A stretch of DNA of 64,000 nt from Ochromonas danica. Taxonomy: Eukaryota > Sar > Chrysophyceae > Chromulinales > Chromulinaceae. The stretch spans positions 62,001 through 126,000 of the forward strand of contig VKHL01000002.1 of NCBI GenBank assembly GCA_015146655.1, written 5' to 3'. The stretch's first letter is position 1; each line of letters begins with the position of its first letter. A program made the position numbers and the translations under genes. Under the pieces are notes generated by a model. It was not told the DNA's origin. It saw nothing but the letters and a program-made list of their open reading frames with translations, and made no database searches. This document shows positions 1 to 51,600 of the stretch, in pieces.

Positions 1-1010
1 AGGAGGAAGCCAAACGTAAGGCCGAGGAAGAAGCAAAGGCTCTCGCCAAGCGAAAGGCCGAGGAGGAAGCCAAGCGTAAGGCCGAGGAGGAAGCAAAGGC
101 TCTCGCCAAGCGCAAGGCCGAGGAGGAAGCCAAGCGTAAGGCCGAGGAAGAAGCAAAGGCTCTCGCCAAGCGCAAGGCTGAAGAAGAAGAAGCTAAACGC
201 AAGGCTGAAGAGGAAGCCAAGGCTCTCGCCAAGCGCAAAGCTGAAGAAGAGGCTAAACGCAAGGCTGAAGAGGAAGCCAAGGCTCTCGCCAAGCGCAAGG
301 CTGAGGAGGAAGCCAAGCGTAAGGCCGAGGAAGAAGCCAAGCGCAAGGCTGAAGAAGAAGAAGCTAAACGCAAGGCTGAGGAGGAAGCCAAGCGCAAGGC
401 TGAGGAGGAAGAAGCTAAACGCAAGGCTGAGGAGGAAGCCAAGCGCAAGGCTGAGGAAGAAGCTAAGCGCAAGGCTGAGGAAGAAGCTAAGCGCAAGGCT
501 GAAGAAGAGGCCAAGCGCAAGGCTGAAGAAGAAGCCAAGGCTCTCGCCAAGCGCAAGGCCGAGGAAGAAGAAGCCAAGCGCAAGGCTGAAGAAGAAGCCA
601 AGGCTCTCGCCAAGCGAAAGGCTGAGGAGGAAGCCAAGCGTAAGGCCGAGGAAGAAGCCAAGCGCAAGGCTGAAGAAGAAGCTAAGCGCAAGGCTGAGGA
701 AGAAGAAGCCAAGCGCAAGGCTGAAGAAGAAGCCAAGGCTCTCGCCAAGCGTAAGGCCGAGGAAGAAGCTAAGCGCAAGGCTGAAGAAGAAGCCAAGGCT
801 CTCGCCAAGCGCAAGGCTGAGGAGGAAGCCAAGCGCAAGGCCGAGGAAGAAGAAGCCAAGCGTAAGGCCGAAGAGGAAGCTAAACATAAGGCTGAAGAAG
901 AGGCCAAGCGTAAGGCCGAGGAAGAGGCTGCACGAAAGGCTGAAGAAGAGGCCAAGCGTAAGGCCGAGGAAGAGGCTGCACGAAAGGCTGAAGAAGAGGC
1001 CAAGCTTAAA
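1..1010 (+). repeat. In-frame coding minisatellite (KRKAEEEA units)
   Basis: This is about 1 kb of tandem units of 24 to 57 bases, all multiples of three, coding for variations on KRKAEEEA with KALAKRKAEEE spacers. Neighbouring units differ mainly at synonymous sites (gcc/gct, cgt/cgc, gag/gaa). This suggests repeated unequal exchange with selection for the encoded helix. It runs off the left edge, so the full length is unknown. Confidence 0.9.
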
Positions 1011-2079
1011 GTTGATGAACGAAAGATGTCAGCGAAGGAAGTGAAACCCAAAAAGCCGCCTGTTCAAGATTCGAAGAAGTCATCCAAGAAAAGCGCCACA
1101 GCAAGCATTGATGTTAATCAACCATCTCAACTTGACATCGCCATCGAAGCAACAATCCGAGAGATGGAAAATGCTGCTGAGGAAAACATTCCCAGTGGCA
1201 AAGATGATTTCCAGAGTGGTAAAGTATTGAATCAAATAGTGACAGGGTTTTCGAAGGTTCCACTGGAGATGTAAGCCACTGTCATGAGTGTTTTTATTTC
1301 ATTGGTAAATGGCTTGTTTGATAGATTAAGGAGAGTTGCTGATAAGCATGGCGATGGATTGTCTATAGCTCAGGGTCTGAGTCCCAAGGACAGCCTTGAA
1401 ATCCACATGCAAAAAGCATTGATAGCAACTTGGACTGCAAGTGGTCGTAACTGGAACAAATTTAACTCTTTATATGCTCAAGATATTGAACCTGTGGTAA
1501 GTGACACTTTTCGATATATACTGTCACCAATGCTTCACGTTAAGCATTTCTGTCAATATCTTCGCAGGCTGATGAAAATGGCAAATATATGGGTGCCGCC
1601 ATTGCTGCAACTGAAGATATAAGTGATGCTAAGTATGTCTTCATGTAGACTCTCAACAATTTCTTACTGATCCCTTGATTGCTTACAGGTTGAAGGAGCT
1701 TATCAAGAAGTATGGCTCTTCTTCGGCTGTTCCAAAGAACAAGAAGAAAGACAGCAAGGAAGACGATCAAACCGATGCCTTCGACTCAAAAGATCGTATT
1801 AAGTATGTATCCAATCTGTTGGACGTCTTGAGAACCAAGTTCCAGAACGATTACAAACCGGTTAGTGATATTGTTGCCAAGGAGGCCAAAGAAATCAAAA
1901 GTATGAAAACAAAGGGATTCGGAGCGGCGCTAAAGAAGGCAGCGTCATTGAAGTCATCAGCCGGAGGGGCAGATGCCACTGATTCTGCAAGTGTCATAGT
2001 AGAGGAGGCTGGAGAAGCAACAAACGCCCCAGCTAAAGCTGCCGAAAAGAAAACTCGCCGTAAAGCCAAGGATGTGTGA
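3..2079 (+). CDS. K/R/E/A-repeat helical protein, 3' part (5' end outside window)
   Basis: The reading frame is already open at base 3 and has no start inside the window, so only the C-terminal ~631 residues are seen. Exons: 3-1270, 1325-1496, 1568-1632, 1689-2079. The introns are 54, 71 and 56 nt, all GT-AG, and the frame is continuous across each. About the first 335 residues are a nearly perfect repeat built from KRKAEEEA and KALAKRKAEEE units, a charge pattern typical of long single alpha-helices or coiled coils. The non-repetitive C-terminal part (about 290 residues) has a Lys/Glu/Ala-rich tail ending in KKTRRKAKDV. I recognise no domain. The repeat resembles TolA or caldesmon helices only in composition. 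A structural or cytoskeletal role is inference. Confidence 0.75.
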
Positions 2080-20305: not shown

Positions 20306-23300
20306 TTAGCGTCGACGACGAGCTGTGAGAGAAGAAGTAGTACTACTACTAACACTACCATTACTACCACCACCTCCACTACCACCGTTGACTTGATTTG
20401 GACGACCATATAGAGTGGTATTAGCAGCAAAGATAGATTGAGAAGGTGCAGCAGGGAGACTGCCAATAGTACCCGATGGTCGTAACTGTTGCATAAGAGA
20501 TTTCTCTGCAGCTGCAAGATATACTTCTCGTTTTGAACCAAGACTATTAATTGAACCTTCTTCTAGTCCATTACCTCCCACTAATGAATTACCAGCAGCA
20601 GTCATCATTACATTATTGTTATTGTTATTACTATCACCATTAGGTTTGGATTGTAGTTGTAGTTGTAGTTGTGGTTGTAATTGTAATGCTTTTGCTGGAC
20701 TAGCAAAAGCAAAAAGATGTCTTAACATCTTCTCTGGTAAGGCATTACAAACTGTTCGTTCATAACTTTCAATATGTTCATGTAGATCTTTTATACGACT
20801 TTCACGTAATAGACGAACTTCTTGTGCACGTTGTTGTTGTGCATTTGCTAAATTACGTAAAGTAATAATACGATGTCGTAATGCACGATGTTCTTTCTCT
20901 TCTAATCCTCCTCCACCTTGATGTTGATGTTGTTGATGTTGTTGCTTCTCAATATCAACTGCTTGTTGTTTAGCAATTAAAGCAGAGAAAAGTAATTGTT
21001 TTTCACGTTGACTTAGATTTGTAATATCTTCTACCATTCTTTCAATTGTTTTTGTTGTTTCAGAAAATTTGTCTAAATTCAAACGTTCTAATTTATTTTC
21101 TAATAACCAAACTTTCTCTCTTAATCCCATTAGATTATCTGTACCATAAGAAGCTGTAGCTCCTGTAGCTGTTCCTGTAGGGAGGATATCTAATAGAGAA
21201 GAGGATGATGGTAATTGTTGTCTTGCTTCTACTAACATGGTTAAATACATTCGTTGTTGTGATGTTAAACTTTGTGTTGTCATATGAAGATGTTGTAATT
21301 CACATTCAGATAGTTTCAATAGATTAACATAATGTGTACGTTGAATAGATAACGCTTGTTGAATAAGTCCAGCAAGATGATTCATTAAATTAGTTAAACT
21401 TCGTTGTGCTTCTTGTGCTTGTTCTTCTAATTGTTCATCTTGTCTTCCTATATGATGTTGACTTATAGGAGTTAATGCTTCTTTAGGATTAAAGAATAAC
21501 CATTGATATAAGGATGAGATAGCAGCTGAGAGAGAAGCTTGTGTATTGTTAAGAAGTCCTTCTAACTGTTGTACAATGACTTCATCTTTACCAAGTTGTT
21601 CTAATCCCATAGCAAATGATGATTCTCCTCCTCTTTCATTAGCATGACCAATAGCTGCTGCTGCTGCTGCTGCTGCTGACGATGATGATACTATATCAGA
21701 GCTAAGAGGTCTCTTTTGTATGAAAGATGATAATAACTGTTGACCTGCTCCTCCTCCTCCTCCTGCTAGTGGTGCTGTAGAGGAGAATGAAGCAGATATA
21801 GCAGATGTTGTTGTTGTTGTTGGTAGAGCAGGTAAGCGTTGACCTGCTCGTGTTAATCGTGAAGTTGTTGCAGTTGTTACTACTCCAGGTAGACGTTTCT
21901 TCTTCTTTGATAAGATACTCTCCACTGACTTGGTTAGTAATGGATTATGAGGTTGAAGGAGAGAGTCTAGACTATGAGATGATGTCAGTAATGACACATT
22001 ATCACTATTATTACTGTTATTGTAGTTATCTGATGCAATAAGGTTAGATTTTAATGCTAATATGCGATTTTTAGAAGAAGAAGTAATAGCAGAGTTACCA
22101 GGTGGAATCATTTCTAATGGAGCTTTTTGAATAAAGTTCATAAAGATAGTATTGTTGTTGTTGTTGTTGTTGTTATTAGAAGAAGAATGACTTATAATAG
22201 AACTACTACTATTAGATAGAGATGATCTCATATCAGCTGGTAGTAGTAGTTGTAGTAGTAGTTGTTGTTGTTGTAGTGAGGATGGTTTGGGTAAGAAGCT
22301 AATAGAAGAGGAAACACTATTATTACTACCATTAACATCACCAACACCACCACCACCAGTAGCAGTAACAGCAGCTATATGAGGTGATGGTATTAGTGCT
22401 TGAGTGTTATTAGTGTTGTTATTGTCTTGAAGGAGAGTTTGATTGACAAAAGAATTGACTTGATCACTATTAAAAGAATTCACAGAATGAACACTTGAAG
22501 CATCATTTTCTAAACTACTTCCATAATCTAATCCTTCCCTATTACCAATAATACCATCAATATTACCAATATTGCCAATATTGCCATCACTATCACCAAT
22601 AATACCAATATTACCACTTTTACCACCTGCCATGTCTACTGTGGGCTGTAGTTGCTGTTGTTGTAAGAGATGTTGTTGTTGTTGTTGTTGGTCTTTATTG
22701 ATAGTGATAAAGGGATTGTTATAATAATAATTATTATTATTCTGTCGATTATCTCTTCCAATACTAGCAATCTGAAGTGATAATTGATGAAATAATGTAT
22801 TAGTTGGTAAAGTACAAGATTGCATCACATCAGATTGAATTGTTTTCAATAATTTGGAAAATTCTTCTTGAAACACTTCCAAGATTTTCATCATAACTAC
22901 CTTGTTGGAATCTCCACCACCACCACCACCACCACCACCACCACCACCACCACCATCACCTCCTCCTTCAGGACCAGCATCTTCTTCTTCTAATTCATTC
23001 TTATTGTTATTAGTTAATACTAATTGATTAACACGATATTGTAAATTTTTATTTTCTTCTTCATAAGATACAATTTCTTCAATTAATTGATTAATTTGAC
23101 TTTGTAATCGTATTGTATTATCTTCTTTTTCAACTGATAATTGATTATTTTTATCTTGTAATTCATCAATTTTATCTTTTAATCGTTCAATAATTGCTTT
23201 TAAATCACTTTCTTTTTGCATTTCCTTTTGTAAAACATGAAATTGTTGACTTAAAACTTGATATTTTGATTCAAATTTTTGGTTTTGATAAACTAAATTT

Positions 23301-26300
23301 TGATTTTCTTCTAAAATTTGATCTTTTTCAACTGCTAGATGATCATTTGCTGTTAATAAACGACGTGTTGCTTGATCCATTATATGGAAATGTTGAATTT
23401 TCTCTTTTTGTTCTTTGATTATAGTTTGTGTTGAAAGATATTTTTCAAAAGTAAAAAGAGAAATTTCAGATAGAAATTGATTTAATACAATTGATAAATC
23501 AGTTGAAAGACGATGAAATCGTTTAATAATGGGATGAAATGTTACTTGATAGTCTTGATGATAGATTGCTGACACATTCTTCATCCCTCCTCCTCCTCCT
23601 CCTCCACCACCACCACTACCTCCTCCTACTGTAATAAGTGACGTATCTCTAATAGTAGTAGTAGTGGTAGTAGAGGTAGTGGCGGTAGAGGTAGTGGTAG
23701 TGGTAGTAGTAGTTGGAATGAGACGTCGATAACGGTCACTTGGATTAGGAAAACCATTTGAAATACGAACAATTTTCACTATCGAGGTAATAGGTAGACT
23801 AGTCACATCATCTGAACTACCACTACTTCCACTACTACCACTGCTAGTAGTAGTAGTAGTAGTAGCACTGGTATTCATTAATAAATGAGAAGGTTGTCTT
23901 TGTAATGTCTTTCTTCTACGTGGAGAAAGAGGATTATGTAAAATATCTAAAATACGTGAAGCAAAGAGAAGATTCACCATTTCATCACTATTTGGATGAA
24001 TTTCCATATTTTCAGGTAACATTGAAATAATATCATTTAATCCATTATTATCATTATTACCATTATTATGATGATGAGGATGATCGAACCAAACAAGGGT
24101 ATAAGCTTCTTTAAATAATTGTGATTCAATAATTAATAAATCATTTAAACAATAAGTTAATTCTCTTGGCCATGGTAAACATTTAACAGTTGATGAAATA
24201 TGTTCATAACATGATAATTGAGGTATCCAATAAGGTTCAAATGTTTTCTTATTATAAGAAAGATTATTATTACTACTTGTTGTATACATGATACCAATAT
24301 TATTATTATAAAGATGTCTTGATAATGCTTGTGTATTAATAATATTTATACTATATGGTAAATAATAACATGGTTTAATATGTATAATTTCAATATGAGG
24401 TGGTAATTGTCGTATATATAGATTTTTATATTGTTGACTTAAACCTAATTGAAAAGTTGATGGTAAATCTAATTGAGAAGTTGTACGTGAACGTTCAATA
24501 AAGAAATGATGTGGTGGTAGACTAATCATTTTCAATTGTTCTACTGTATTGGTAGTAGTGTTACTAGAACTCTCTGTTGATAGTAACTGTCCTTCTTTCT
24601 CATCATTCTCATAGGTGTTATTGTCATTATTAGTGTTGGCTTGATGATGATGATGATGATGTACACTAACAGCTTGTATACCAGGTAATACACTACCCCA
24701 TGAATATACTTCATAAGTTAACGGTAACGTTACAACAATTAAATTAGATGGAAGTGATAGATAATCTTTCTTCAAGGTTGTTGTAAATCCATCTAATCCA
24801 ATCTCATATATACCTTGTATAGCTAATTGTTCTAATACTTGATTAATATCATCTTCATATAGATGTAAACAGACTGTTCCTGTAGGTAGATTACGTAATG
24901 TTAAAGGAGGTTGACAAACAACAGCACCAGGAACTAAAATAACACCTTCTGGTAAACTATAATGTCCTGGTAGATTAATCACTTCAACATTCATCTCTGT
25001 CTTAACATGATTACTACTGCTACTACTGTTATTAACATTTCTTAAAACTTGACTAAGTTTAGGATGTAATAAATGATTTGGTATAACTTCTATACCAGGA
25101 GGAAAAGGTAAATGTTTTGAAGCACGTGATACTAACATTTGCCCTTCACCTAATGGACGATTATATTGATTATATTGTTCTATCATATTTTCTAAACCTA
25201 TTGAAACATTTGATGCTAATTGTCTTTCACAATAGATATGTAATGAAGCTGGTAATCGAACTAACATTGTATCAGGATGTAATGCTCCTTTGGTTGGTCT
25301 TAACATAGTATATTCAAATGGTAAACATGCTTCTGGTAATCGTTTCACTAATTCTGTACCAGGTTCTAATGTAACATAAGCTGGCCATTCAACAACTTCT
25401 AAACATTCTGCCATTTTACCTGGATCAGTAGATACAAGAGGAGGATGCATATGATTAGTTGTAGATAATACAGTGCCTGGAGAAAGTTGTGTACATAAAC
25501 CTAAACGTACACCATAATCTAAAGTAACTCCACGAGGTAATTCAAAACGAACTTTCAAACGTAATACTTCCATACCATCTTGAAGTAAAACTTTAGGTGG
25601 TAATTCTGCTACAGAAGCACGATAAACATGAGGTGGAAGTGGTACACCTGGTTGACGTCGAACTAATACTAAATTAACAGGAAGTGATGGTAAACTAACT
25701 CGTTCATTCTCTGGGAAGAGATATCGAGGATGTAGAACAGTTACTCCTGGTGATAGAATAGCTCCTTCAGGTAGAGGACAAGCTAATGGTGTATGATGAC
25801 TATTTAATAACTCAACACAGATTAATTTTCTTGGATAACATGATTTTGATATTTCTAATCCTTTAGGAATAGGACAAGGTATAACATAATTGGGAAGTGG
25901 TGGAATTTGTGATTCTGATAATGTAGGATCAGGATAAATTAGAATCTGTGTTGGTGTTAAATAGATACTATGAATACGAGGATAAATTAGATAGAAATTA
26001 TTTAATCTTGTTCCAGGAGGATAATCAAATTTTGGCATTAATTGTATTAAAACACAACCTGGTGTTAATGATAATCCTTTTGGATGATCTTTACGTGGAA
26101 CAAATGTCATTCCAGGTGGTAAACTATGTCCAGGTGATAGTTTAATAATTTCTTGTCCTAATCCAAGAGAAATATCTTTTGGTCGTTGAATAACTTTACA
26201 TCCACGATATAAACATTCTTGTACTTCCATAGCATTATTATCTTTATTCATTGCAAATGATTGTATTAATAATAAATTTGATGGTAATGGTTTTTGTTCA

Positions 26301-29300
26301 GGATTACGAATAATTTTCACATTATATGGTAATGTAATTTGTGGTGGAATAGATGCAATAAAGATATTATCAGCAATTTCTAATCCAACTGGAAGATTAA
26401 TTGTTGTATCATCCATTACTTGTACTAGTTGATGACCAGATGGTAAAACTAATTCTTTATCATCTGTTAATGTCACTTGGTGTTCCATTTGTTGACGTTG
26501 TTTCATTGTTAGTTTTGCACCTTCCACAAAAGGTAATAATTCATTATTATGTATCTTGGTTGCATCACTTTCATAACGAATATGTATACTATCATCTAAT
26601 ACAAGTTGTTTAGAAAGGTTAACTTGAAATAATCCACGTGGTAGATCAAGTGGACTTCTTGCTTTAACTATCAAGAGATCATATGGTAAAGCTACCATAT
26701 TCTCAGTTGCAGCTGAACCATGAAAAGCATTCCAACATGTAAAACGATAATCATGACCTTGATTTATATAATGATAACCAGAAATCAATAGAGTTTTACT
26801 TGATAAATGAAAATGCATTGGGAAAACAACAGCTATACATCCTGTAACTTTAGGTAATTCTATATAGTTTGGTGCTTGTCGTATAGATGATGGTAGTTTA
26901 TGAAAGTCTCCTTGTATCTTACTTCCTTCTTCATTAACAGTATTATTCGTCTTTTTAAAGAATACATAACGGATGTTATTCATTAGATTGTCTAAGATCT
27001 TTGGTAATAATACTGTTTTACCATCCGATTGTTCAACAACAAGTCCATGACAGATTCGTTGATAAGATGCTAAATGTACACCAGGTGCAATTTCTAATTC
27101 ATCTTCTAAGAATGAAGCAAAGAAATATCCTTCAGGTAACATGCCTTCAAGCTTATCCATACTACCACTATTATCACTGTTTCGACTTAAAGATGATTCA
27201 GTACTGTTGATGTTGTCTACAGAAGATTGCAACGTATCTATTGTCTGAGTGGCCATTTCGGTACAATTCAATCGTCCTGGAAGTATTGATGGTGCTACCA
27301 TATCATCATCTTCATCATCCATTGACAATTCTCTTGTCTCTAATACAACAACTTCTAACTTTTGCTTTTCTTTCTCTGAAGGATTTTCATTATTAAATTG
27401 TAGAACAGTTGGAATAATGATTTCCTCTACAGCTTTGGGAGATTCTTTTTTGATAGAAAGAGATGGACTATTAGAAGTCATCGCAGCTGCTGTTGTTGTG
27501 GTAGTATTAATAGTCATATTAGCTGTAGCAGTCTGAATAGCATTGTTAATTTCTGCTTGATGGTAGTTATGAATATAGTCAAGTATAGAATTCAATTTAT
27601 CTTGAACCTCTACACCTTCATATGACATGTAATGATGACTTGTCATAGCAACTAATCGACTTGTCAATAAGTGGAATGGAAGATACATACTTTGTCTCAT
27701 AACATGGTCTAAAATAGCCAATGCTGATGAATGTTGACCTTCCTTCCATAGTCTCAATATCGTCTCAACATTCTCCAAGTAACGTACCGCTTCAATTTGT
27801 CCACGTAAGGCTATTTGAATGGCACGATCAATCCAAAAATGAAGACTTGGTCCTTGAGGTTCTTTAGAACTTGGAGTAGTAGCAGAAACAAAGTCAGCCT
27901 CTGTATTTGCTAGATGACTCAAGATCTGTGCATTTTCAAAGGATGGAGTCTCTTGAAGATCAAACTTGCCTGTATTCTTTTTCGTAGTAGCTTTACCAGA
28001 TGGCTTCGTTCCAGACTTTGCTACACCTTGTTTGGGTGGAAGCTTTTCATCATTATCATGATTTAAATTGAGGTTAGCAGAAGTAGTCTGTAAAGCAGTC
28101 CAAGTACCTTGACGCCGAACAGGTCCTCTATTGCTGTAATAAACAGGAACAGCCTCATTTGTCTGTGGAACATCAGGTTTCAGATTTCGAGCTGAATTCA
28201 TGTAGGAAGATGCTCGAGAAAGATTAACAGAGCCGTCTGAACCTTTAACATCTCCTTCCTCCAATCCATTAGATAGAGACATTTGTTGTTGACTTTGCTG
28301 CTGTTGAAATTTAGGCAATTGTGATTGCTGTGCGGAAGGAAAGTTACTGTAATTAACAGGTGCGCTTGGGTTGGAGTTGGGGTTATAGATCAAGGAACCA
28401 GGATTGTGGTTAATGTTTGGGTTTCTTGCAGCAACATTACCGTTGTAGCCCATTTGCTGAATTGGGAGTGCTACATAGCCTGCTGCGATTGGAATAGGAC
28501 CAAGAAGATTGCCTTGACTACCCATACCTTGGAATTGCTGGACACCTGGTTGCAAAGCAAACGGCAGTTGATTCATATTGCCCGCAGGGTAAGATAAATT
28601 TACTCTCGGGTCATTTTGTTGATTAGGGACGTTGATTTGTAAGCCAGCAGAAAATGACTGTTGGGGTTGTTGTGGGTTTTGCGACTGCCACTGTCCTGAT
28701 GATTGGGTGAGATTTAGATTTTGCACTGGAGGTTGTTCATTACCTTGTGGATGCTGATATTGAGAAACCGGCTGCGATTGTGCTTGCAATAATTGACGTT
28801 GCTGCTGTATTGGTAGCTGAAATTGTGACTGTACTAACCACTCTGGTGGTTGCTGCTGGACCCCTTGTTGCAATTGCAAAGACCCTTGCTGTTGCTGACC
28901 TTGCTGCTGCTGTTGAAATACTTGTTGCTGCACTTGTGGTTGCTGCGATAGTTGTTGCATCTGTTGGAAAGGTTGCACAAGTTGTTGCTGCTGCATTTGT
29001 TGCTGTGATGAGAAAGGTTGCGACAATGGCTGCATTTGTTGAAACGATTGCATGAGTTGTTGCGACGGTGTTTGTTGTTGTGATGGTAAAGGCAGCGATA
29101 GTTGCTGCATCTGTTGGAGCGGTTGCACGATTTGTTGTTGTTGCTGCTGCTGTTGCTGAAGCGCAAGTATCGGCTGTGGCATGGTGCCACTGCTAACGCC
29201 CATATTCATATTGGCCAAACTGTTAGTTGAGCCCAAGCCTCCAGATGTTCCACCATTTGCACTGATGTTTGCTTGAGAAAAGGTGTTTGCAGGCAATATG

Positions 29301-32300
29301 TTTTGTGCTTGGTTATTGCTCCCCAACGGCAATTGAGGAGAAAAGGTGCCAGCAATATTGGGCATATTGTTCCCCATATACATAGGCATAGGATTAGGCC
29401 CAACATTGACGCTTCCATTTGGACCAGTAGCAACTACACTACCACCTGCGTTATTATTCATAACAGGAAGCGCATTTTGAGATTGAACAGGATAAGCAGT
29501 GGAAGTGTATGGAGAACTCATGATGGGAAGAGGATTGTTGTATCCAAAGTTTGGAGCTGAGGAATACGCACTCGGGATAACAGACTGAGTGCCTATTTGA
29601 CCAGCATTATTAGCAACAGGTTGTTGTTGCTTGTTATCACTACCATGACTAATAGTACCCACTGGATTGGTTTGATTGGTTTCAACCGGAGTGGAAGGTT
29701 TTGATATTTTCATTGCTTTTTGAGCTACCTGCAATAAAGTCTCCCTGTTTCGTCTATAATTGTCTTCACCACTACCCATGGAATCATCAAATGGAAGTTT
29801 CTGTATCTTATCTAATATATTGTCAACATTATTTTGCTGCATTACTTTAGCCATTAAGCCTACTAACTTGTGTTTATTATCTGATTCTCGCATTAGTTCA
29901 CGTCGAAAGATTTCTAATGCTTTGGTACGAATCTCGAGAGGTAAGTTAGAGACATCTGTATCTAGAGGAAGAAGTAATAAAGCTTTATTAATCGCTTTCA
30001 TACCACCTGCTTTTTGAATACAAAGCTTGATAACATCAATATGAACATTTAAAATATCTCTAAAAATACCACCATTTTGATAATATAACAATTGTTTCCA
30101 TGTTGCCATAAAGGACAATTTTGTTAAATGATCTTCTGTAGCACGTAGATAACCAACAAGTTCTAAGATAGGTGTATTAGCAATCACATTATTAAGAAGC
30201 ATATTACGTTTAATTTCCATTGTTTTAAGTTGCATACGATATTGTCTGTTTTTAGCATCTTCTGCTGCTGTATTACGTTTCATACTTTTCTCATCTTTTG
30301 GTTGTAACACATCATATGGATTCTCTTCACTATTGACATTATATCTCATATGATATTCAATCGTAGTTAATGCAATAATATCATCTGTACCAAAAATCTT
30401 ATTTCTTAATCGATCAAAATTTTCATTTCTTACTTCACCAATATAAGTAAGATCACCAAAATCAACAACTTTATTATCATCAATTCCTTCTGATAATGCT
30501 CTAGAACCATCATCGCTACCTGATCCACTAATATGAAATAATAATTGTTCTAATTGTTTTGCATCTTTATCATCTAATTCAGACGCATTTAGAAATTTCT
30601 CATATGATTTTTCTTTTTCTAAAATCTCATGATAAATTTGTTGTTTTAATTCTTCTTCAATTTCTGTACGTATTTGTAAACGTATTGCTTCTGTTACAAG
30701 TGTACCATTCCCTGCTGCTTTACTATTTCGTATACTTGTTCTTCGTTTCCCTTCATATTCTGTAGTACCACCTCCAGCTGTTGAAGGTTTTACAAGTGCA
30801 TTGGCTGAAGTTGGAGGTAAAGTAGTATTGTTTGTTCCAAAGTTATCATACAATTCTTGTTCTTCTTCAGCAACTTCTTCCATAGCTGCTTCAAATTCAT
30901 CTCGTAACTTCTTCATTTCTACTTCATGATCTAGTTTTAATCGTTCAGCTTCTTCACGATGTAATACTTCAAGATCATGAATACGAATTGTCATTTTACT
31001 AACTTTTATATCACAATCTCTTTCAATCGTTGCTTTTTCCTTTGTATGCTCTTCATTTAATTCATAAATAGTATGATTATGTTGTGTAGTCAGTTGATCA
31101 ATTGTTTCTTGTACTTTCTCTGTCATTTGATCAACATGTTCAGCTCTTAATCGATTCACAAGATCTTCTTTTGATTTTTCTAATTTAATCACTAAATCTT
31201 GTGCTGTTGTTAATAGAAAACTTTCAATAGCAGCAGGAATATTATTTTCTTCTTTATTTTGTTTTAAAATATCTGCATCATTTGTTAAACCTGCTGCTGT
31301 ATTATATCCAAGTTTCCTAGCAGTTTGTACAAGTGTTGTCACACTACTAGACATCGTATAGAAAGCACGAATTAGATCACGTAAGAACCCTTCTTCTACA
31401 GGATAGGAATTAGAAAAATCACCAGTTCCTTTATCAAAAAAGTAATTATTTGTCACAATCGACTGTCGTACAATATCTTCAACTCGATTGAGTGAAAGAT
31501 CTAATGGAAGTTCACGTAATGGAGTAGAAGGACCACGAGTTGTTGTTTCAGGTACAGGATCTGTTTGTGCACCAAAAGAACGAGTACTGATAGGAACCAT
31601 AGACATTGATCGAGATGCTAATCTCATAGGCTCTTCTACAACCACAACAGGTGTAGGTTCTGGCTCAGGTTCTGGCTCACCATCAAGATATCGTTGTACA
31701 GGAGGAAATCTATCTCTTAAATCAAGAATACAATTTCGTTCATTAGACAAACTAACTTCTGTCTGACTAAGTGATTCATTCAAATCATGAATAGTAGTAG
31801 ATAATTCTTCTTTTTCATGTTCAAATTTCTTTTGATTTTGAATCGCTTCATTCACAATATTCATTCGATCATCTTCCACTAACATACAGATATTCTCATA
31901 TGATTTATTTAATTGAAAAATTTGTTCCATTTTTTGTTTTCGTTCTTCTTCCATCTGCTTGATAATATCATCTCGTTCTCTTCTCATACTACGAAAATCA
32001 ATCTGACTATTAACAAGTTGATCTTTAATTCGATCTAATTCACTACGAACTGCTTCATCTTCTTTACGCATTTGTGTAATCTTCTCCATCCAAATTTCTT
32101 TCTCTTGTTCTCTTGCTTTTTGTAAATCTTCTTCATTATATTTCCCTTGTGTTGATAAAGCATCTGCTAATTCTTTCTTTAATTCACGTATTCTTTCACG
32201 ATCTCTTTCAGCATCTTGTTGTAACGAAATTCGTTCTCTTGTCAATTCTGCTATATGTGCAGTCTGTTCATTCATCATTCGTTGTAATCGTTCAACTTCT

Positions 32301-33872
32301 TGCTGAATAGAAGATAATTCTTCAGCATGCTTTTGTGCAACTTCTTCAGCTAATTTCCTTTGATCTTTAAGTCGTTGTTCAGATGCTTTCAATTTCGCTT
32401 CAGCATCTACAATAATCTTATGGATACTATTAGCAACAACTCTCAGTTCACCAGAGATCCAACTTGCTTCTTTCTCAACTTTCCCGATACGACTAAGAGT
32501 TCGTTTTTCTTCTTCTTCACTAGCATGAATTAAATCTTGAATAGCTTGTGCTGAATTTTGTAAAGCATGTAAAAGATGTTCTTTATCACGATTGCTTTGT
32601 TCTTTCTCTGTTAAAGCACGTTCATAATCTCGAAGAAGAGTTGTAACTTTCTTTTGACTTTCTACTAATACAGTTTCTTTCTCTTGTAATGTCTTTTGAA
32701 CAACTTTACGCATATCATCAAGTCTTGTATTCAAAATATCTATTTTACTTTCATATTCCTTCTTATCAGATTGATATTGACTTTTCAAGTCTTTATAATT
32801 CTCTCTTTCTTGACTTAACGAACCTGTCAAATCAACTACTTCTTCTTCTAACTCACGAATTCTTCGATTACTATCCATACCATCTCTTTCTAACTGATCC
32901 AATTGGTCACTGAGTTGATCTTCTGACTTGACTAACTCTTCAATACGTCTGGACATAATATCAATCTTACTTGATGCATGATTAAGTTCTGTTTTTACTT
33001 CAGACAATTCAGCAGAAAGTGCGGAGATAGTTTGCCTCTTCTCGACTAGCTCTGTTTCCTTCAATTCGAGGGTAGTTCGTGCAAGTTCCAACTCTTGAAG
33101 ATCTAGATTAGGAACTTGATTCATATCTCTTCGTTGTTGCTCAGCAATACGTAGCTTTTTCTCTAATTGTTGAAGCTTAGCAAGCATTTCTTCCATAGTT
33201 CGTTTATTATTTTGTACTTCGTGTCGAAATGTCGTTTTGTCTGATGTCCTAATACACAAAGAAGAGATTTAACCCCCAAGAGATTTAAGCAACCAAGCAA
33301 ATACATAGAAAAACCTCTTACCATTGCATGGTAACAGATCGAGCTTTCTGTTCAGCTAACTCGAGTTGTTTCCTCATATTTGACATCTTCTTTTGCATCA
33401 TAACAATAGCAAGACTTTCAGCCTTGGCGATTGCATCCGTTGTGGGCTTAGGAGGGCTTAAAGCAGGATCAAGACTTGTCTTCTTATCATCAATTTTCCC
33501 AAAAGATGTAATAGCAGGAAATTCAAACTTATCCATAGCTTCACGTGGTGAATTGGTTGCGGCAACTTGTGCAACACGTTTAACAGCTTCTACAATCTTC
33601 TTTCGCATTTGAGTCTTGAAATTCTCAGCAATATTTTGTTGATCAATATTATCTAATAAATCAGCAATCTCTTTTTCAATTAGTTCTTCTTCTAACCAAT
33701 TGACTTCTATGGTAGGACTTTTCGTTTGGAAAGCTAATGCTTCATTCAGTACTTGAGATAGTTCTCGATTAGTAAAGTTAGCTGGTGAAGGTTGTTTTGA
33801 CTCATGACCAATAGTAGAAATTCTTAAACTACTACCACTTGGTTTATCATAACTTTCATCTTCTTCCATCAT
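20306..33872 (-). CDS. Giant coiled-coil protein with LPxG repeat block
   Basis: Two exons, 33872-33322 and 33248-20306, with a 73-nt GT-AG intron; about 4,497 residues. Order of parts (approximate residues): acidic N-terminus; long coiled coils ~150-650 and ~860-980 rich in E/K/R/Q heptads; a PEPEPEP linker near 710; a Gln/Asn/Pro-rich, prion-like segment ~1540-1700; a helical domain near 2000; a repeat block ~2225-3050 with at least 20 copies of L-P-x-G/N-hydrophobic-x-hydrophobic (LPSGHQLV, LPPGMTFV, LPEGAILS, LPRGVTLDYG, LPEGVILVPG); then low-complexity Gly/Ser/Thr runs; a third coiled coil ~3490-3600; and a C-terminal coil ~4110-4350. There is no signal peptide, membrane segment or motor domain. 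A scaffold of cytoskeleton, basal body or cell covering is possible but unproven. Confidence 0.8.
28700..29170 (-). repeat. CAG/CAA-rich tract coding a Gln-rich segment
   Basis: A stretch of mixed CAA/CAG codons inside the giant gene encodes runs such as QQLVQPFQQMQQLSQQ. The units SQQQMQ and QPFQQMQ recur about every 20-25 residues, so it is a degenerate repeat rather than a pure microsatellite. Confidence 0.8.
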
Positions 33873-36256: not shown

Positions 36257-37300
36257 ATGAAGTCCACTTGGAGTCTTTTAATGAAGAACAAAGTTATACA
36301 TCTTCCCAGTCATCTTTGTAGAAAGTGCCACTATGCCACTTCTATGGTGATTCAACCATCTCCCGTGGTGCCATCCAAACCAACCACTTCTTTTCATAAA
36401 CGACCTCTACCAAAAGAGTTAATTGCCATGAGTTCTCTTGAAGGGAGAAAGATTTTCCGTGAAGCTTTGGATGCTGGTGGAATGGAATGCTATTTCCCTT
36501 TAGCCGAGCAGTTCATCACACAATCTGATCCCTCTTTCTGCTCTGTTTCCACATTAGCCATGGTAATGAATGCCTTAAATTTTGATTTAAAACGTATTTG
36601 GAAAGGCCCTTGGAGATGGGTATCAGAAGAAATGCTTCAATGTGAGTCTCAGTCTGTTTGTGGTCATAGTATTAATCGAGTCAAAGAACAAGGCATGAGC
36701 TTCAAAGAATTTGAGTCACTAGCAAGATGTCATGGTGTGAAAATAAAGGCTTTTCCAGTTTGTGCTTGTGTTTCAGATAAAGGTCCTTGTGATGAACATG
36801 CGTATGAAGCATTTCGAAAGAGTATTACAGAGATTTGCAGTCGAGATGCTGGAGATCGTTTCCTTGTGGTGAATTTCTCTCGCAAAGCTATCGGGCAAAC
36901 AGGAGATGGACATTATAGTCCAATAGGTGGTTTTCATAGAGAGCGTGATTTGGTATTAGTACTTGATGTTGCTCGATTTAAGTATCCTCCTTTCTGGGTT
37001 TCTGTGCGTGCTCTCTGGGAATCCATGTCTGTCATTGACAAGGCGACAGGTCGACCTAGAGGCTATTTTGTAGTTTCAGGATGGGATCAAGACCAACGAG
37101 ATAAAGAGAGTCTTTCTAGTGCTGGAGAGAAATGTCCATCAGGCATTCGCAGCTGGGTGGAAGCCAAACCTGTGAATGAGAAATGTAGTCGCAGCCATAA
37201 CCATAGCCATCATCATCATGACCATAGTCATGCTAATTGTGGGTCTCACGATTCATGCTCTGCTTCGCATGACATGGCAAAGCAGCAACCTGTACATTAA
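36257..37300 (+). CDS. PCS: Phytochelatin synthase
   Basis: Single exon, 347 residues. Phytochelatin synthase joins gamma-Glu-Cys units from glutathione into heavy-metal-binding phytochelatins; it belongs to peptidase clan CA. The catalytic triad is visible: Cys95 in SDPSFCSVSTL, His219 in GDGHYSPIGGF and Asp237 in LVLDVARFKYPPFWV. The 18-residue His-Asp spacing equals that of the Arabidopsis enzyme. PLAEQFITQSDPSFC and MVMNALNFD also match the family. The N-terminus (first ~45 residues) is basic and Ser-rich and could be a mitochondrial or plastid leader. The C-terminus lacks the long Cys-rich plant domain but ends in a His/Cys-rich tail (SHHHHDHSHANCGSHDSC), which may bind metal directly. 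Confidence 0.95.
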   Translation: MKSTWSLLMKNKVIHLPSHLCRKCHYATSMVIQPSPVVPSKPTTSFHKRPLPKELIAMSSLEGRKIFREALDAGGMECYFPLAEQFITQSDPSFCSVSTLAMVMNALNFDLKRIWKGPWRWVSEEMLQCESQSVCGHSINRVKEQGMSFKEFESLARCHGVKIKAFPVCACVSDKGPCDEHAYEAFRKSITEICSRDAGDRFLVVNFSRKAIGQTGDGHYSPIGGFHRERDLVLVLDVARFKYPPFWVSVRALWESMSVIDKATGRPRGYFVVSGWDQDQRDKESLSSAGEKCPSGIRSWVEAKPVNEKCSRSHNHSHHHHDHSHANCGSHDSCSASHDMAKQQPVH

Positions 37301-42665: not shown

Positions 42666-45600
42666 TCAACCAAATAGGATGGAGGTAGGTCTGTTACTGC
42701 TATTGCTACCATTGTTAGTGGCGGTGGTATTATTGGCTTGGAAAATAGACGTTGATCCTTGTCCCAATGGGGCTGACTGTGCCAGTTGTTGTTGTTGACT
42801 ATTCGCAGAGTTGATCGGAGCTTGATTACCGCCTGCCGTGAGATTGGTTGACTGCCTGCGTTGTGCTGTATTTCTCCAATTGGTAAATCGAGCACCAATA
42901 TCTTTCCAGAAGTCACGCACTTTGAGCACAGAAGCATGTCCACTAGCAGAGCTTATTCCCAATCGATGGAGAAGTTTGGTAGCCGAGTAGACAAACTCTG
43001 CATCACCCGCACTGTTTCGTTGTGACAGATGGAATGCTTTGTTTGCAAGTTTGTTGATTACTCCTTGATGAATAGAAACATCATCACTCCCCAATAATAT
43101 CTCTGATAAGACGCGGAAATAGGCACGATAGAATGGATGTGTGCCAGATGGTTGAGAAGTTAAATCACCCACTTTATCGAACACAAACTCAATGATTCGT
43201 TGACCATCTTTAGCAGGCAGTACAAGACAAAGCTATACAATGCAATGGAACAAAAAACTTATTTAACCAAAATACCACAAATAGAGAGAAATAGCACAAC
43301 TTACATGCTGCAATGCCATAGACATTTCCAGTGAACAGAGGAGAATAGCCTTTTCCAGAAATACACGATTAAGAAAAGTTTGCAAATCATCTGATGACAA
43401 AGAAGCCTTCCGATCATTCACCATGATCACCTCTTCAGACGGGCTATAACGAATAAAACAATTAAGTGCACATTAAGCTATCATCATCTTCTTAAATGAA
43501 TAAATCAAAGGAATGGAAATGTACCTGATAGCAGGAGCAGCAGCAGACTTGACAATCCCACAGATTAATTCTAAAACATTAGATTGATTGATTATATCAA
43601 TATTGATTAGATCAACAATGATAACTCATTGAAATAGTAGTAAGATAATTCATACCAATACAAGGGATGCGGATAGCATCAGGTAACGTGGTATTTACAA
43701 GTGATTCAAGGCGAAGAAATACATCCACAACTCGTTGAATTGTTCCTAAACGCAACAAGAAATACTTTTCTTCATCACCCAGACCAGCAACATTGGTCAA
43801 AACGGAGCAGCACATTTTAAACCCTTTGAGACATCATCATCATCGTCATAGAAGCAAAATTAAGTCTTTATTATCGGAATATAGCAGATCAGTTGAGATC
43901 AACTTACCATCTTTGCGTAGAATGTCCTCTATTGAAGATGTTTCCAAGACCAACAACAACATATGAAGAACTTTACAAACAGTCATTAGCACAGGAGATT
44001 CTTCTAATGCTGTGAAAACTTGTTGAGGTAATTGTTGAAGCATTTGTTGTCGAGCTGATGGTTCAGCTAAGGACTTATTCGTTGGACTTATCGCACACTG
44101 CGTGATAATTATTGGCAGAGGAGATTGGATTAAATGTGTATGAGAGGCTTTAAATGCCATAATTAAGAGACGAGAGAAAGAATGAACAGTAGCAGGATGT
44201 GGACAGTATTGGAAGAGAGAGACCAACCAGGAATGAATCGTGACATTATTAGATGATGTAGAGGCTAACTCATTGAGAATAGTCAATGCCACCTGCCCTG
44301 TTGTATCTTCCTTGACAATCTCTTCTAGTTTGCTGAAGAAAACTGGGATACAAGCTCTAGCTCTTGCTCGAATTAGAACATCAATTAGGAAACGTAGTGT
44401 CACTAGAGTCCATGATGGTACAGTAGAATCTTGTTGATGTATTTGAAGCATCTTCCAATAAAACAATACATGCTTTACATGGAAAAGAAAACGATCTTCT
44501 TGGAATTCTGTATTTTCTGTCCAAACAGCTTCTTCCACACGCTTAGCAATGGTAGTAGGAGAAACATCAGTTGCCATCGAAGATAATGCTATGGAACTCC
44601 CAGGATTCGGTGCTAACTTAGCTGATGATCCGCCAACAAAGACTGGACCCTCTTTTCGTTCATAGATAAGCAAGTATGCGTTGTTCTCTCGTACTCGACT
44701 AATGGTAGCACCAGATGCGTTGATCACTTCCTCCGAACCACCAAAGCATTCCTTGGCGATATTGTCTGGATTGAAAGGAAGAACAAGGCGGTCATTGAAC
44801 TCAAACCATTGATTGGAGCGTCGATCTTTGACAAAAGAGTAATAATGACCGCGATCAATTGCTCCCACATGAGCTACGATACCTTTCAATGTATAATGAT
44901 AATAGGTATCAGGTTTCTTCTCTAACTGTTTCGCAGATGATGATGGTGCGGAGGAAACAGAGGATTCCTTTGGTGAAGCATCACCATCTCCTTCAGATGG
45001 TTCTAATGGTTGTTGCTGAGGTACCTCTCTTGTAGCAACACCTTCTTCTGTATAAGGAAACATATCCAATTCATGTGGGAAAGAGATGAAATCATTCACT
45101 TTCTTACGATTCATTGTTTCAAGATCAAACTCAAATCGTTTCAAATGAATAATAAGAGTAGGAGGAAGACTACGAATTGCACAACGTCGAGTAGCATCAA
45201 CTTTCCGTCCAGCATCTGAATCTTCAATCTTATTATCTCCTGTGAATAACTCTTCTGCTACATTCAATTCAAGCGATTCATGTAAAGTTCGTTTGTCTTT
45301 AACTTCAGCGGAAATCATAAAGAAACTCTCTTCTCGTTCACTACGATAAGGAGTTTCTAAAGATCTTGTCTGCCATACTAAAGTACCTTGAATAGTTCTC
45401 TTCAATAAATCTGCACATGCAGGATTTCTTTCTAATTTATCAAACAACATACCAGCAAATTCATTAATATCCTTCTGTTCCACAAGACTTAAAGGTTGTC
45501 CATCATAATCAATCAGAGAACGACAAAAAGGTAAAGTATCATAATAACGCTTTTGACCTAAGCGAAGATATCCAAACATAACTTGCATTTGAAAGAGAAC

Positions 45601-48600
45601 ATTTAAAAATTCATTTTCTGTAGCATATTCAGAGATACTTAATAACCCATCTGTAAATGATTGGATATGGAAGAGTTGTTGTATGAAAGAGTTCATATAA
45701 CAAGTTCCTCCTTGATTACACAAGCCAATATAGTCATCTTTGAGACGTAATAAAGCACTTGGATCATAATCCCATAACCATGACCTCTTATTTGCAATTA
45801 AAGAATGATCATTATTTTCCTCCTCTGTTGTAGATGAGGTAATCTTTTCAACCAATTGTGATGGTAAAGGGTGGGCCTTATTGACAGCTGCAGCCAGGTG
45901 TGATAGATTCTCATTGCAACCATCACATAAAACAGACAATAAGACGTACGCTAGACTACGACTTTCTGCAGTTTGACAAAGTGCCACTTTCTTGGCCTCA
46001 TCACTTTCATTTCCATGTAAGAGATACACAAGTGGATAAAGACAGTTAAGATAGAGGAATTCAATCAGTGTAGTATCTACTGTTTCTCCTGACAGATACC
46101 CTCCAATATATTCTTTATTCTCTTCTTCCAGTGATAAAACAAGTAAAACACGAAGGATTCCAATTAATTCTCCATCTGTTTGCCCAGAATGGAACGTTTC
46201 TCTGGAAGAGTGATTACGTAATCTCTTCACGAAAGTTTGAATTAAAGGTCTTCGTTCTTCAGCAGACTCAGTCGAGGTCATGCCAGCTTCAGTGGGGGAA
46301 AGATTATCACCACCCACTGATGCAAAGCTAGCTGAGTTTCCAATCAATGACAATCGAACATCATTGAAAAGGGATAAGCCAGTAAATGCCTTCTCTGGTG
46401 CTATACGAATACATTCTAATGCAGCAAGTAAAGTATAAAAGCTTTCAAGTTTTTCAGGATTTTGAGCACTTTCCAATATATCCACATCCTTTAGAGCTGT
46501 AGAAATGACCGAACCAACCAAAGCATCATATAATCGGACACGAGCAGGTTTCTTTTCTTGTGCAAGAGATGGATCAGCACATTTAATGTAGATACAAGCA
46601 CAACCTTCGAAGCAGCGACGAGCAATAGCCAATTGAATGGCATGATTGCATTCACACTCAAAGCAAGTTCGAAAGAGCATTTCAACGAAGCGAGTTTGTT
46701 GAATCAGAGTTAGCCCATCCTCTCTGGCAGCAGTTAAACCAAAGCTTAAACCTAATGCATGATCAATGAATGACTCCAAAACCCACAAAGAAATCTTTCC
46801 ATCTTCAGACAATTCACAACCACGAGAGCATGCCACTAAAATGGTCGAAACTAGTTTAAATGCATCCATGCAAGTTAATACAACCGCCGGCGCGATATTA
46901 TCAGAAGAATTATCTCCCGTGGGTTTACTGATAAGAGAACGATTACATTGCCACATACGATAAACGGGATCTTGAGCAAGTAAATATGAAGATATGCGAA
47001 TGAGAATAATGCTTGTCAAGAGATATAAATCGCAACGATGAACTTGATAGTCAAATGCTCCACACTCCTGTGGTCTCCATGGGAATGGTTGAGCAGAAGA
47101 TTTGACTAGATTATGATTTAATAGCTCACTAACAAATTCAGAACCACCGAGATGGAAGAACTTCATTGCCCAATCAGCAGGGGAGGAGGAGCTTGAAGGG
47201 ATGGACAACATTTGTACTTCATTGTCATTTTGGTTTGCACCAAGAAGAGAGTCCACCATTTGTAGTGTATAGAGTAGGCGATAGGGACAGCTGGCATCAA
47301 ACAAGGCACGTAGCTTCAAACCGTCTCCTTCCATAATATTATTCTTTATGTCTAAATAGAGTGAGACTTGAAATGGCAAAGACTGAATAATATCCCAAAC
47401 AACACTGGACAGGCCGATAAGATTTTCGTCTTCCTCACTCTTCATGCTTAAATACCCATCTAGCATTTCAAGAAGTTGATCAATATAATGAGGATTAGCT
47501 TTAATGATAGGCACCAGCTGCTCACTGACAACTTCAAGTCGATCCGATGGAATGCTCTTCTCCGGTTGAGTAGAATCTGAAGTGAAGTATTGTTTCAATG
47601 AGCTTCTCAATGGGAATGGCGGCATATTGAAAATATTGCCAGACTTGTGTGAGCCAGCACCGAATCCAAGCCATCCCAAAGGATCCAATTCATCAAGTAA
47701 CTCATGTTCCAACTCCTTCTCAGTGATCACATCCGAAATAACAAAAGGATTGTCACCACTCTTTTCACTGGATGTCGGAAGAGGAGAATCTTTCTTTCTA
47801 GCGTAGAGACTATCGAAAAACCCAAACTTGGCATTGCGAATAGTGATATCATCCTTCTCTAACTTATCCGCTGCTGAATTGGAGGTTTGTAACAGAATGA
47901 TGGAAGGGTCTTCTTTAAAGTGCTGAGCAACCTTTAGTCGAACATTACCAATAGTATCTGTAGATTTGCAGGATAACTTTAATGTGGTTGAATCATCATT
48001 ACCAGCGATAACCTTGATAGTATGAAAATGTACTGGGAAAAAATACCATCGATGAATGAACATCTGAAGAGTAGTCACCAAACGAGCAATACGAACGGAT
48101 AGGACATGGGCAGGAGAAATCTTATTTGCATCCTCAAACCATTCTTCTGCTTTACCATTGGCATCAAAGTGTGTTGAAACCACTCTACTTTTCTCTTTCT
48201 CAATTCCCATTGAACCTTCTGCACCAAGTGGTTTGTCAACATCATCGACTGCATTCGATTCCTCACTATGAAGGGCTTGCATGGAATGATATAAATGCTT
48301 GAAACACAATTTTAAAAAACCAGCTTTCAAACCTTCTATTCCTTTTCCACTTTTAGGAATTCGATGATGAAGTTCGACTAACAGCTTCATAGCCGCTAAA
48401 GGAACACCTCCATGATCAGCGTCTAATGCCAATCTCCAAAGCAAAGGAATACCAATTAGATAACCTGATCGATTCCATTGACCATCATTGTCAAAACGTA
48501 AGGTCTTATTGTTTAGGTTCACTAGAAGAAACATCTTCATAGCCAAACTTGCCACAGCAGGTCGAGATAAGGCACGTGCACCATCATTAGAATATGCTAA

Positions 48601-51600
48601 TTTCAATATACAGTCTTCAAAAATGCGACTAACCACATTTTCTTCTAAGACTGTGAAAACTTCTGTTCCAGATTTACCATTGCCATTCTTTGGTTCTAAG
48701 TCCCCCAAAAAAGACAACTGTGAATTGAGATCAGGACGAAGTGGATCATTTTCATAGACTATGGAAGCCATTATCGAGCTTAAGAGAGGATGCTCATTAA
48801 CAACTAAACCATCCAGCCAAATGCACAGCTTATCGAGAGCTTCTTCAGAAGTCGAGTCTTCGCCAAAAACCTGCCAAACAATCAGGGCCTGTGCCTCAGA
48901 CAACTTGAAGCAAGACTTTGACAAAACAAATTGCAGAAAATCGAGTCTTTCTACAATTCCTTTTAATTTGCTAACTTCCGCAACTCTGCTTTTGGGTCGA
49001 GGACGACCAGCTATTCCATTATCACCAGTTACAGCCTTCCCCACCTGATTATGGATGCGTTCTAATTCTGCAAAGAAGATCTCCATTAAGCGGGACTGTT
49101 TCAACAATTTCTCTATTTGTTGGGCAATACTTGTGCCCTTGGGCATACTTTGACGAGACAAGATGAACCACCCTTTATTTCCAGATGGATACAAACAAAG
49201 TGTCCTTCTCAAAAGTTGTAATGAAATTGGAACATTCCTACCCAGTTGCACATTGTCAATACACTTCTGCATGACTGCCTCTCGTTCCTCCACAAACTCT
49301 TCTTGCAACAATTCGACGAGTAGATCGACTGCAAGGCCAATGAGAATCGGATCCGCATTTGCGTCTTCTGAAGAATCTTGGATAAACTTCCACAGCAAAC
49401 CAAATCCCATCCACTGTCGATTGGATCCGTTAACCACCTGCACCTTGCGATTGAGAGTTGTAGGCATGGAAACTACTCTGTTGTGATTAGTATTGCTATT
49501 ATCTTCTACGTGAAGAGCATTATCACTGAGAGCGAAGATATCTCCATGCTTTCCCTTTTCCTCTCGAGCAACTCGAAGATATTCCAAGGTGAAATTCTGA
49601 ATTAATCGCAGTACCTGCTCATTGTATTCTTTATAGCTCATTGAAGATAGCAAGTTGAAAAGAAATTGTCGCAAAGAGTTGTCCATTGCTGGTAGCAATA
49701 CAAGTAACAAATGGAACGTTACACGCACAATGGCTTCATGAGCTCCTTTGGTAGCTTGCCAAATCAATTGAATATGCTTCTCTTCAAGTAAATGACGATA
49801 AGCCATATAGACAAGAACATTATCAGCCTTGGAGATCATATCTTGGTGAAGTGAATCTCCAAAGAGAACATCAACTATATTAGACTGCTTCAACCACTTA
49901 TCGAATTTAGCCTCTGAGATAACGATTTTGAGATTATACATGGAATTACCATAGGGTCGTGGAGCAGGCGTCGTGGATGCGACCCCTCTCTTCAGAGTCT
50001 GTCGTCTTTTCTGAAGAAAAGGTCCCAATTTTGGCAACAGGCTGTCTATCACTTCCTTGACAATGGACAGCCCTTGATAACGCTTTTGAAGCTTTGCAGA
50101 AGATAGCAGCTTTTGAGCCATACTGAGGCGAAGTAGATCTAAACTCTCTTGAACATCTGGTTTTCTACTTTCTTTTAGATCAGCTGATGCTAAATTGAGC
50201 AAATCTCTGATGGTCAAGAGCAAGTCATTGAACTCTCTCATATTGAACTCTCGGATTAGTTGTTCATCATAGCGCAATAATGTCATAGGTATTATTTCTT
50301 TGAGATCCCAAGTAAAATCACGGAATCGCTTAGCTCCAATATGCTGACGAAGGTTATATACGAGTTGCAAATGAAGCAACATGATTCTACATGAAGGAGG
50401 AGGAGAAGACTCAATGAGAGACTGAAACATGTTTTCTGCTCCGTTCGCTTGAAAGTACTCATTAATTGCTTCAAGCTGATAGCTTGATAGGTTGAGAACA
50501 GTTGAGGCACCTGGCCTAGGAATAGTAGTGATTGCCTTCTCTGTCACACTGTCAGACCGATCATCTCTACTTTGTGAACTAATATCTAAGTTATTCGAAA
50601 CATTGTTACGATAAGATCGATGCCATTCAGCTATGATCTTCGATGCTTGAGCATCAGACAATCCAGATGTGCTTCGCAGCACATCTAGAGGAGCATCAAT
50701 CAACTCATATTCCTTCGTGGTCATATCATAGATACGGCTATCTGCATCTTCATAGACTATCGTATGTTGCTTACCATATGGATCATACGCTATCACACGA
50801 CCATAGTAAAACCGTTGATAACGAGACCACCAGATCCGAATGAATTTACTCACATCAACTGTGGAGAACTTTAAACGATTTGCATTACTAACTAAATGCT
50901 GTTGATTTTGCAAATCTACCCATAAATGAGGGCGTTGCTGCAAATCCGCTTTAATAATCATTTCTTCGGTCATATCAGATGAAGATTCTTGATCTGGATT
51001 GATATATCGCTTGGCATGGATTGTATGCATTCCAGTCGAAGGATCATAACTCTCAATATTTCCTTCCACCCATAGACCATTTTCTAATTGATATTGTATA
51101 AAATGACCTACCGCTTTTTGCTCTCCTAAAATTCTCTGCCATTCATCTGGCCAGAAAGAGACGGTCTTTCCTCCTATTAGTGCATGTACTGGACGACCAA
51201 ATTCTCCATAAAATCCTCCATAACCAGAGTATGGAGCTAACATCGGAGTTGGAACATTTCCTAGTTGTTGTGTGGCCAAGAATTGAAAGCATTGATTACC
51301 ATTACCAAGAAGAATAAGATTTCGTAATTCCATTAGTTCCACAATATCATGGGAAGCAGGTTGAGCCAACAACTGCGAGACTTTGAGTAAGATTGAAGCA
51401 ATTTGCTTTTCTTGATCTCTATAAGAGTTTCCATTCAAACACAAAAACAAAGAGAGTACACCATAAGAACAAACCCCCCAACGCACAAGTATGACAAAGA
51501 ATGTTAAAGAAACAAAAACGAAAACAAAAACAAGTACAACAACATGTATGATGTCAATTACTTTACCTTCTTGACTTTTTCCGGAGAAGTAATTCCATTA

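Follow-up and report, generated by a model that had tools for sequence, protein, structure and literature searches.

The giant protein encoded on the minus strand of the window (the whole stretch of 64,000 nucleotides of Ochromonas danica DNA analysed here) carries a real internal repeat built on the motif LPxG. The repeat block (24719..27139, minus strand, residues 2041-2847 of reading frame P0001) holds 33 sites of a degenerate profile and, judging from its sequence, appears to be an old, strongly diverged tandem array with a unit of about 15 residues (about 15-18). It is likely an uncatalogued beta-repeat. The explanation that we favour, and to which we give an even chance, is that the diverged array of ~15-residue units stacks into a solenoid-like beta-rod, a spacer placed between the oligomerising coiled coils of a giant soluble protein.

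Evidence for the repeat and character of its unit

Over the 793 residues of the interval 24750-27130, in which a repeat had originally been predicted, we counted eight strict LPxG motifs (0.59 on average and at most 5 in 2000 shuffles). LPx[GNH] is found 13 times in the same interval (shuffle mean 1.57, maximum 8), and a near-full form of the pattern first described, in which this core is followed by hydrophobic-x-hydrophobic-hydrophobic, 12 times (shuffle mean 0.47, maximum 3). Run without a spacing model, a motif search recovered the 13-residue motif xxxLPxGLELVxL at 24 sites, with a score of 405.2. Taking the composition of the block itself as background, this score of 405 compares with a mean of 223 in 12 shuffles (z 10.6), and 30 shuffles searched as thoroughly as the block reached a maximum of 267.8. 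Likewise set against their own composition and 12 shuffles, six control stretches of 817-830 residues from window proteins outside the giant gene, two of them made of two proteins joined, gave z between -0.4 and 1.8, confirming the predicted internal repeat signal, while three other parts of the giant protein gave 4.3 (a coiled coil), -0.1 and 0.5. When the composition of the block served as background, four further stretches of the giant protein scored 397-564 versus 405 for the block, and these scores are due to that choice.

A profile that slightly favours 14-18-residue gaps placed 33 sites in the block. Their mean leave-one-out score was 6.3 bits, versus 1.8-3.5 in eight shuffles, a generous margin, as each shuffle was run from 12 random starts and the data from chosen sites. 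Since 24 of the 33 sites score above 4 bits when left out and two are negative, the secure units would number roughly 24-30. Above 8 bits, the profile finds the 33 sites of the block (by construction), a single one elsewhere in the giant protein (residue 2914), and two in the 8,012 residues of the 12 other reading frames of the window. The block may continue to about residue 2960, as two further possible units lie at residues 2914 and 2952 (24371..24520, minus strand; 13.1 and 7.1 bits). In a self-comparison, low-complexity pairs were among the top scores.

The coordinates and strand originally given for the block are correct, its stated ends being straddled by the first and last of the 33 profile sites, and so are the units quoted as examples (LPVGLEIA at residue 2289, LPPGMTFVP at 2380, LPEGAILSPG at 2496 and LPEGVILVPG at 2769). 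The count of at least 20 units fails for the pattern as it was written (eight LPxG, 13 LPx[GNH]) and holds for the degenerate profile, with its 33 sites over residues 2041-2847. The spacing of 18-30 residues, in turn, was wrong: five of the 23 gaps between the 24 unconstrained sites are exactly 15 residues (0.95 expected, P 0.0013), and this excess sets the unit at about 15-18, the proposed 18-30 thus corresponding to one to two units. Gaps of 14-18 residues number nine of 23 (4.5 expected, P 0.012). The long gaps of 29-33 and 66-67 look like two or four units with degenerate ones between them, those of 21, 25, 35, 43, 72 and 101 do not resemble multiples of the unit, and the gaps between the 33 profile sites range from 11 to 66.

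The consensus of the unit reads P-E-L-P-L-P-P-G-L-E-L-V, plus about three residues. In the average of all 33 sites, hydrophobic residues occupy -2 and 0, proline stands at +1 in 66% and glycine at +3 in 63%, and hydrophobic beta-formers follow the P-x-G turn at +4, +6 and +7; positions -9 and -8 still echo the preceding unit. This pattern supports the strand-turn-strand character attributed to the unit. The dominant hydropathy period is 7.6 residues, or half of 15.2 (P 0.04 for the whole block, 0.006 and 0.24 in two sub-stretches), and the block has no hydropathy peak at 15.2 itself. Mean pairwise identity among the 33 sites is 18% over 15 residues versus 6.7% at random places, a figure inflated by the picking of sites by motif. 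With such an identity, and with no array detected by Tandem Repeats Finder between 24750 and 27130, the block would represent an old array rather than a recent expansion.

The giant gene and the layout of its protein

The frame P0001 (20306-33259 unspliced, minus strand) stays open over 4,317 codons, a length for which a chance origin is very unlikely at a G+C content of about 35%. It is predicted to be preceded by a probable exon 1 (33322..33872, minus strand; 183 codons plus two bases, with an ATG at 33872 and an in-frame splice) and a probable intron (33249..33321, minus strand; 73 bases, GTAAG...TTAG), the open frame of exon 2 spanning 20306..33248 on the same strand. Excising the predicted 73-base intron fuses both frames without internal stop into approximately 4,497 codons followed by a stop. 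Third-position G+C is low in the giant gene (0.171 over 20306-33872, minus strand; 0.095 in the repeat block) and lies below that of ten neighbouring reading frames (0.24-0.43).

The protein alternates charged, proline-poor stretches, Q/N-rich linkers and the LPxG block. A putative N-terminal coiled coil (32666..33238, minus strand, P0001 residues 8-198) was assigned on a weak SMC match, composition and 3.5-residue power; the match (E 8e-5, 20.5 bits versus a cut-off of 567) is best taken as reflecting a coiled coil, and the region had no match among PDB sequences at E <= 0.01. A similar charged and proline-poor composition extends beyond P0001 residue 198, and the 3.5-residue periodicity peaks between residues 201 and 340 (numbering after splicing). 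A second coiled coil (22982..23368, minus strand, residues 3298-3426) is suggested by a weak SMC-related match (E 1e-4, 20.8 bits versus a cut-off of 300). Tandem Repeats Finder rows and composition delimit a Q/N/P-rich low-complexity linker at 28400..29299 (minus strand). No 19-residue window exceeds a hydropathy of 1.6 across the 4,497 residues, the protein thus lacking a hydrophobic stretch of membrane-spanning length, and the first residues, judged by eye, read as lacking a signal peptide.

Structure models and the fold of the block

We propose that each LPxG unit most likely folds as two strands, the first of them short, joined by a P-x-G turn, and that neighbouring units probably stack via the strands after the glycine, yielding an elongated solenoid-like beta-rod. 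This rod would act as a rigid spacer and a binding surface between the coiled coils, which would in turn oligomerise the giant protein. A soluble scaffold is the most economical reading of this arrangement, and the giant protein probably forms such a scaffold.

The structure prediction suggested along with the original prediction was uninformative for the whole block and partly successful for a portion of it. AlphaFold2 applied to the whole block alone (831 residues, single sequence) gave a pLDDT of 31, with all residues below 50. We then modelled the 90 residues 2519-2608 in an alignment with eight further segments of the block (nine rows), a self-alignment chosen after inspecting several. 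Overlapping repeat windows could not be aligned, as MAFFT chains the overlaps, and the register of non-overlapping parts varies with settings and query, from 5 to 22 of 22 row sites for short rows and from 10 to 18 of 24 for long ones (16 of 24 in the set used for modelling). The resulting model has a mean pLDDT of 63.5 and a pTM of 0.52 (means of the five models 60.6-63.5). Its confident part is a stretch of 40 residues (25556..25675, minus strand, residues 2529-2568, model positions 11-50) with a pLDDT of 83-85, and its last 28 residues fall below 50. Strands are modelled at positions 12-16, 27-29 and 45-50, 15-18 residues apart and one per unit, each directly following a profile site (LPVN at 2526, LPPH at 2541 and LQDG at 2559). 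Three strands spaced in this way would be compatible with a fold that has one strand in each coil. A tendency of AlphaFold2 to over-predict beta-solenoids when given perfect repeats has been reported, although the authors suggest that near-perfect repeats may be the only ones affected (PMC11795689).

Foldseek returned 43 matches for the 90-residue model in the PDB at E <= 10 and 21 among viral models, with a best E of 2.2 in both cases; none of them was convincing, and the model thus has no match to a solved fold. The C-terminal domain D3 of DRB4 and the DRB7.2 complex (PDB 8z4a, 8igd) occupy ranks 1, 4 and 6, with a resemblance to DRB4 D3 that is weak (E 2.2-4.9, probability 0.09-0.11, TM by query 0.24-0.30) and constitutes a lead, not a match; our literature search found no structural paper on DRB4 D3. 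Beta structure in the block is supported, and a beta-solenoid fold is plausible.

A possible though less probable alternative is that the units are hairpins in several small globular beta domains, arranged as beads on a string. Groups of units are separated by uneven gaps (51, 54, 65 and 66 residues), the block contains an S- and N-rich break, and a few units extend by eye as LPxG....PG with a hairpin-like spacing. All this would fit such an arrangement, as would chance-level hits on beta proteins, with FLO1 at E 0.38, RNA polymerase beta' at E 0.47 and 0.79, and Dscam at E 0.08. Yet no domain family matches the block, and the runs of sites spaced by 15, 15, 18 and 15 residues (2350-2413) and by 15, 18, 15 and 18 (2526-2592) are too closely spaced to accommodate linkers, the sites at 2541 and 2592 in these runs scoring just 1.6 and -3.2 when left out.

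It seems unlikely that the block is largely disordered, with units serving as repeated short motifs that bind a partner protein. Its proline content (10.8%), the pLDDT of 31 from the single sequence and the long low-complexity linkers of the giant protein would agree with disorder, but VILMFY residues make up 37% of the block with patterned beta-formers, its residue entropy is above that of the Q-rich linkers, and the self-alignment model is confident over 40 residues.

Relatives, known systems and genomic surroundings

The absence of a described family with this signature, assumed in the original prediction, was borne out in the collections that we searched. Inside the block, no profile passed its cut-off in Pfam (best KHA, E 0.17, 12.4 bits versus 29.6) or in PHROGs (best E 0.45), and NCBIfam gave no match at E <= 0.01, so that by sequence comparison the block appears to belong to no catalogued family in these three. 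The Pfam profile Sod_Fe_N aligns just past it, at residues 2862-2898 (E 0.035, 15 bits versus a cut-off of 27). Sequence searches of the PDB with the block gave no match (best E 0.08), and among the papers listed for the motif, for giant coiled-coil proteins and for algal solenoids none apparently describes the repeat. Scans with the block and with the repeat consensus yielded 2 and 30 pattern-matching stretches in viral contigs, and 11 and 592 in bacterial and archaeal genomes, none of them confirmed; these contig scans begin with short peptide patterns and therefore reach only close relatives. No relative of the block was found in phages, and plasmids searched with the consensus gave one chance-level match (E 0.2) to an unannotated stretch of a Peribacillus plasmid. 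Within its own assembly (31.2 Mb, 337 contigs), the block matched only itself, and the consensus five places, all in the giant gene, from six candidates (the best candidates being scored).

Elongated beta-solenoid tandem repeats are placed in class III, with repeats of 5-40 residues (PMC11795689). The LPxG block also consists of tandem units within this range, and resembles the class as described there in its unit of ~15-18 residues and its short beta-type patches between turns. In contrast to catalogued solenoids, its L-P-x-G-h-x-h-h signature has no Pfam match over cut-off and no PDB sequence match. We tentatively consider, as a possibility weaker than the stacked rod itself, that the LPxG 15-mer defines a new family of structured beta-repeats, folded as a solenoid in which each coil has one P-x-G corner and forming a long intracellular rod in algal giant scaffolds, a family that escaped repeat catalogues because its copies are less than 20% identical. 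Algal giant proteins can contain long stretches without any family model, and a repeat this diverged is detectable only by looking within one protein. Should the block prove to be a rod that is also present in other algae, it would represent a new repeat class and help explain shape-keeping in giant proteins; confined to one protein, it would be a curiosity.

We regard as very improbable that the giant protein is a cortical membrane-skeleton protein of the epiplastin or articulin kind, even though the layout is similar. Epiplastins have a medial domain of beta type that contains proline and valine and is flanked by coiled-coil and Q-rich regions (PMC6212826), as the giant protein does around its own proline/valine beta-type block. 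However, the same paper describes glycine as near-excluded from epiplastins (mean 0.4%), leucine as uncommon in them, and more than three VPV as required in articulins (PMC6212826), whereas glycine reaches 5.5% and VPV is absent in residues 2181-2866 (with one VPV in all 4,317 residues), and leucine makes up 14.7% of the block. The LPxG repeat is moreover defined by a motif and that of epiplastins and articulins by composition, that survey recovered none from stramenopiles or haptophytes (PMC6212826), and no Pfam family reaching E 1 points in this direction. Finally, although the block is rich in leucine and proline, the idea that the repeat reflects chance or composition has practically no standing and is ruled out by the composition-keeping shuffles (peak 267.8 versus 405.2, n=30; z 10.6).

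The host is a photosynthetic alga with a red-lineage plastid. In its assembly, 47 matches fall in the light-harvesting family, in some cases as single exons, and the best PDB matches of a Rubisco encoded there include entries that we take to be red-type. Two clearly different rbcL genes lie on contigs C193 and C289, each behind a frame that looks rps4-like by eye, and the assembly may therefore hold two plastid genomes, perhaps of two algae. 5S rRNA genes occur in 34 places over many contigs, mostly singly; 32 score 86.6-91.7 bits, and two divergent ones 61.5 and 57.8 bits (C336 and C329). A universal primer pattern was found in one place, a bacterial-type small-subunit rRNA gene on contig C214, which is probably mitochondrial, as its flanking frames look by eye like nad4L and cox1.

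Elsewhere in the window, a frame entering from the edge (1-1274, plus strand) carries 15 overlapping Tandem Repeats Finder rows within 1-1009, with a 24-base unit (by eye AKRKAEEE) that looks like a long charged helix. A phytochelatin synthase is encoded at 36257-37300 on the plus strand (Pfam E 4.6e-80), and a ubiquitin hydrolase of 2,546 residues with a USP9X/USP24-type ARM region at 43846-51486 on the minus strand.
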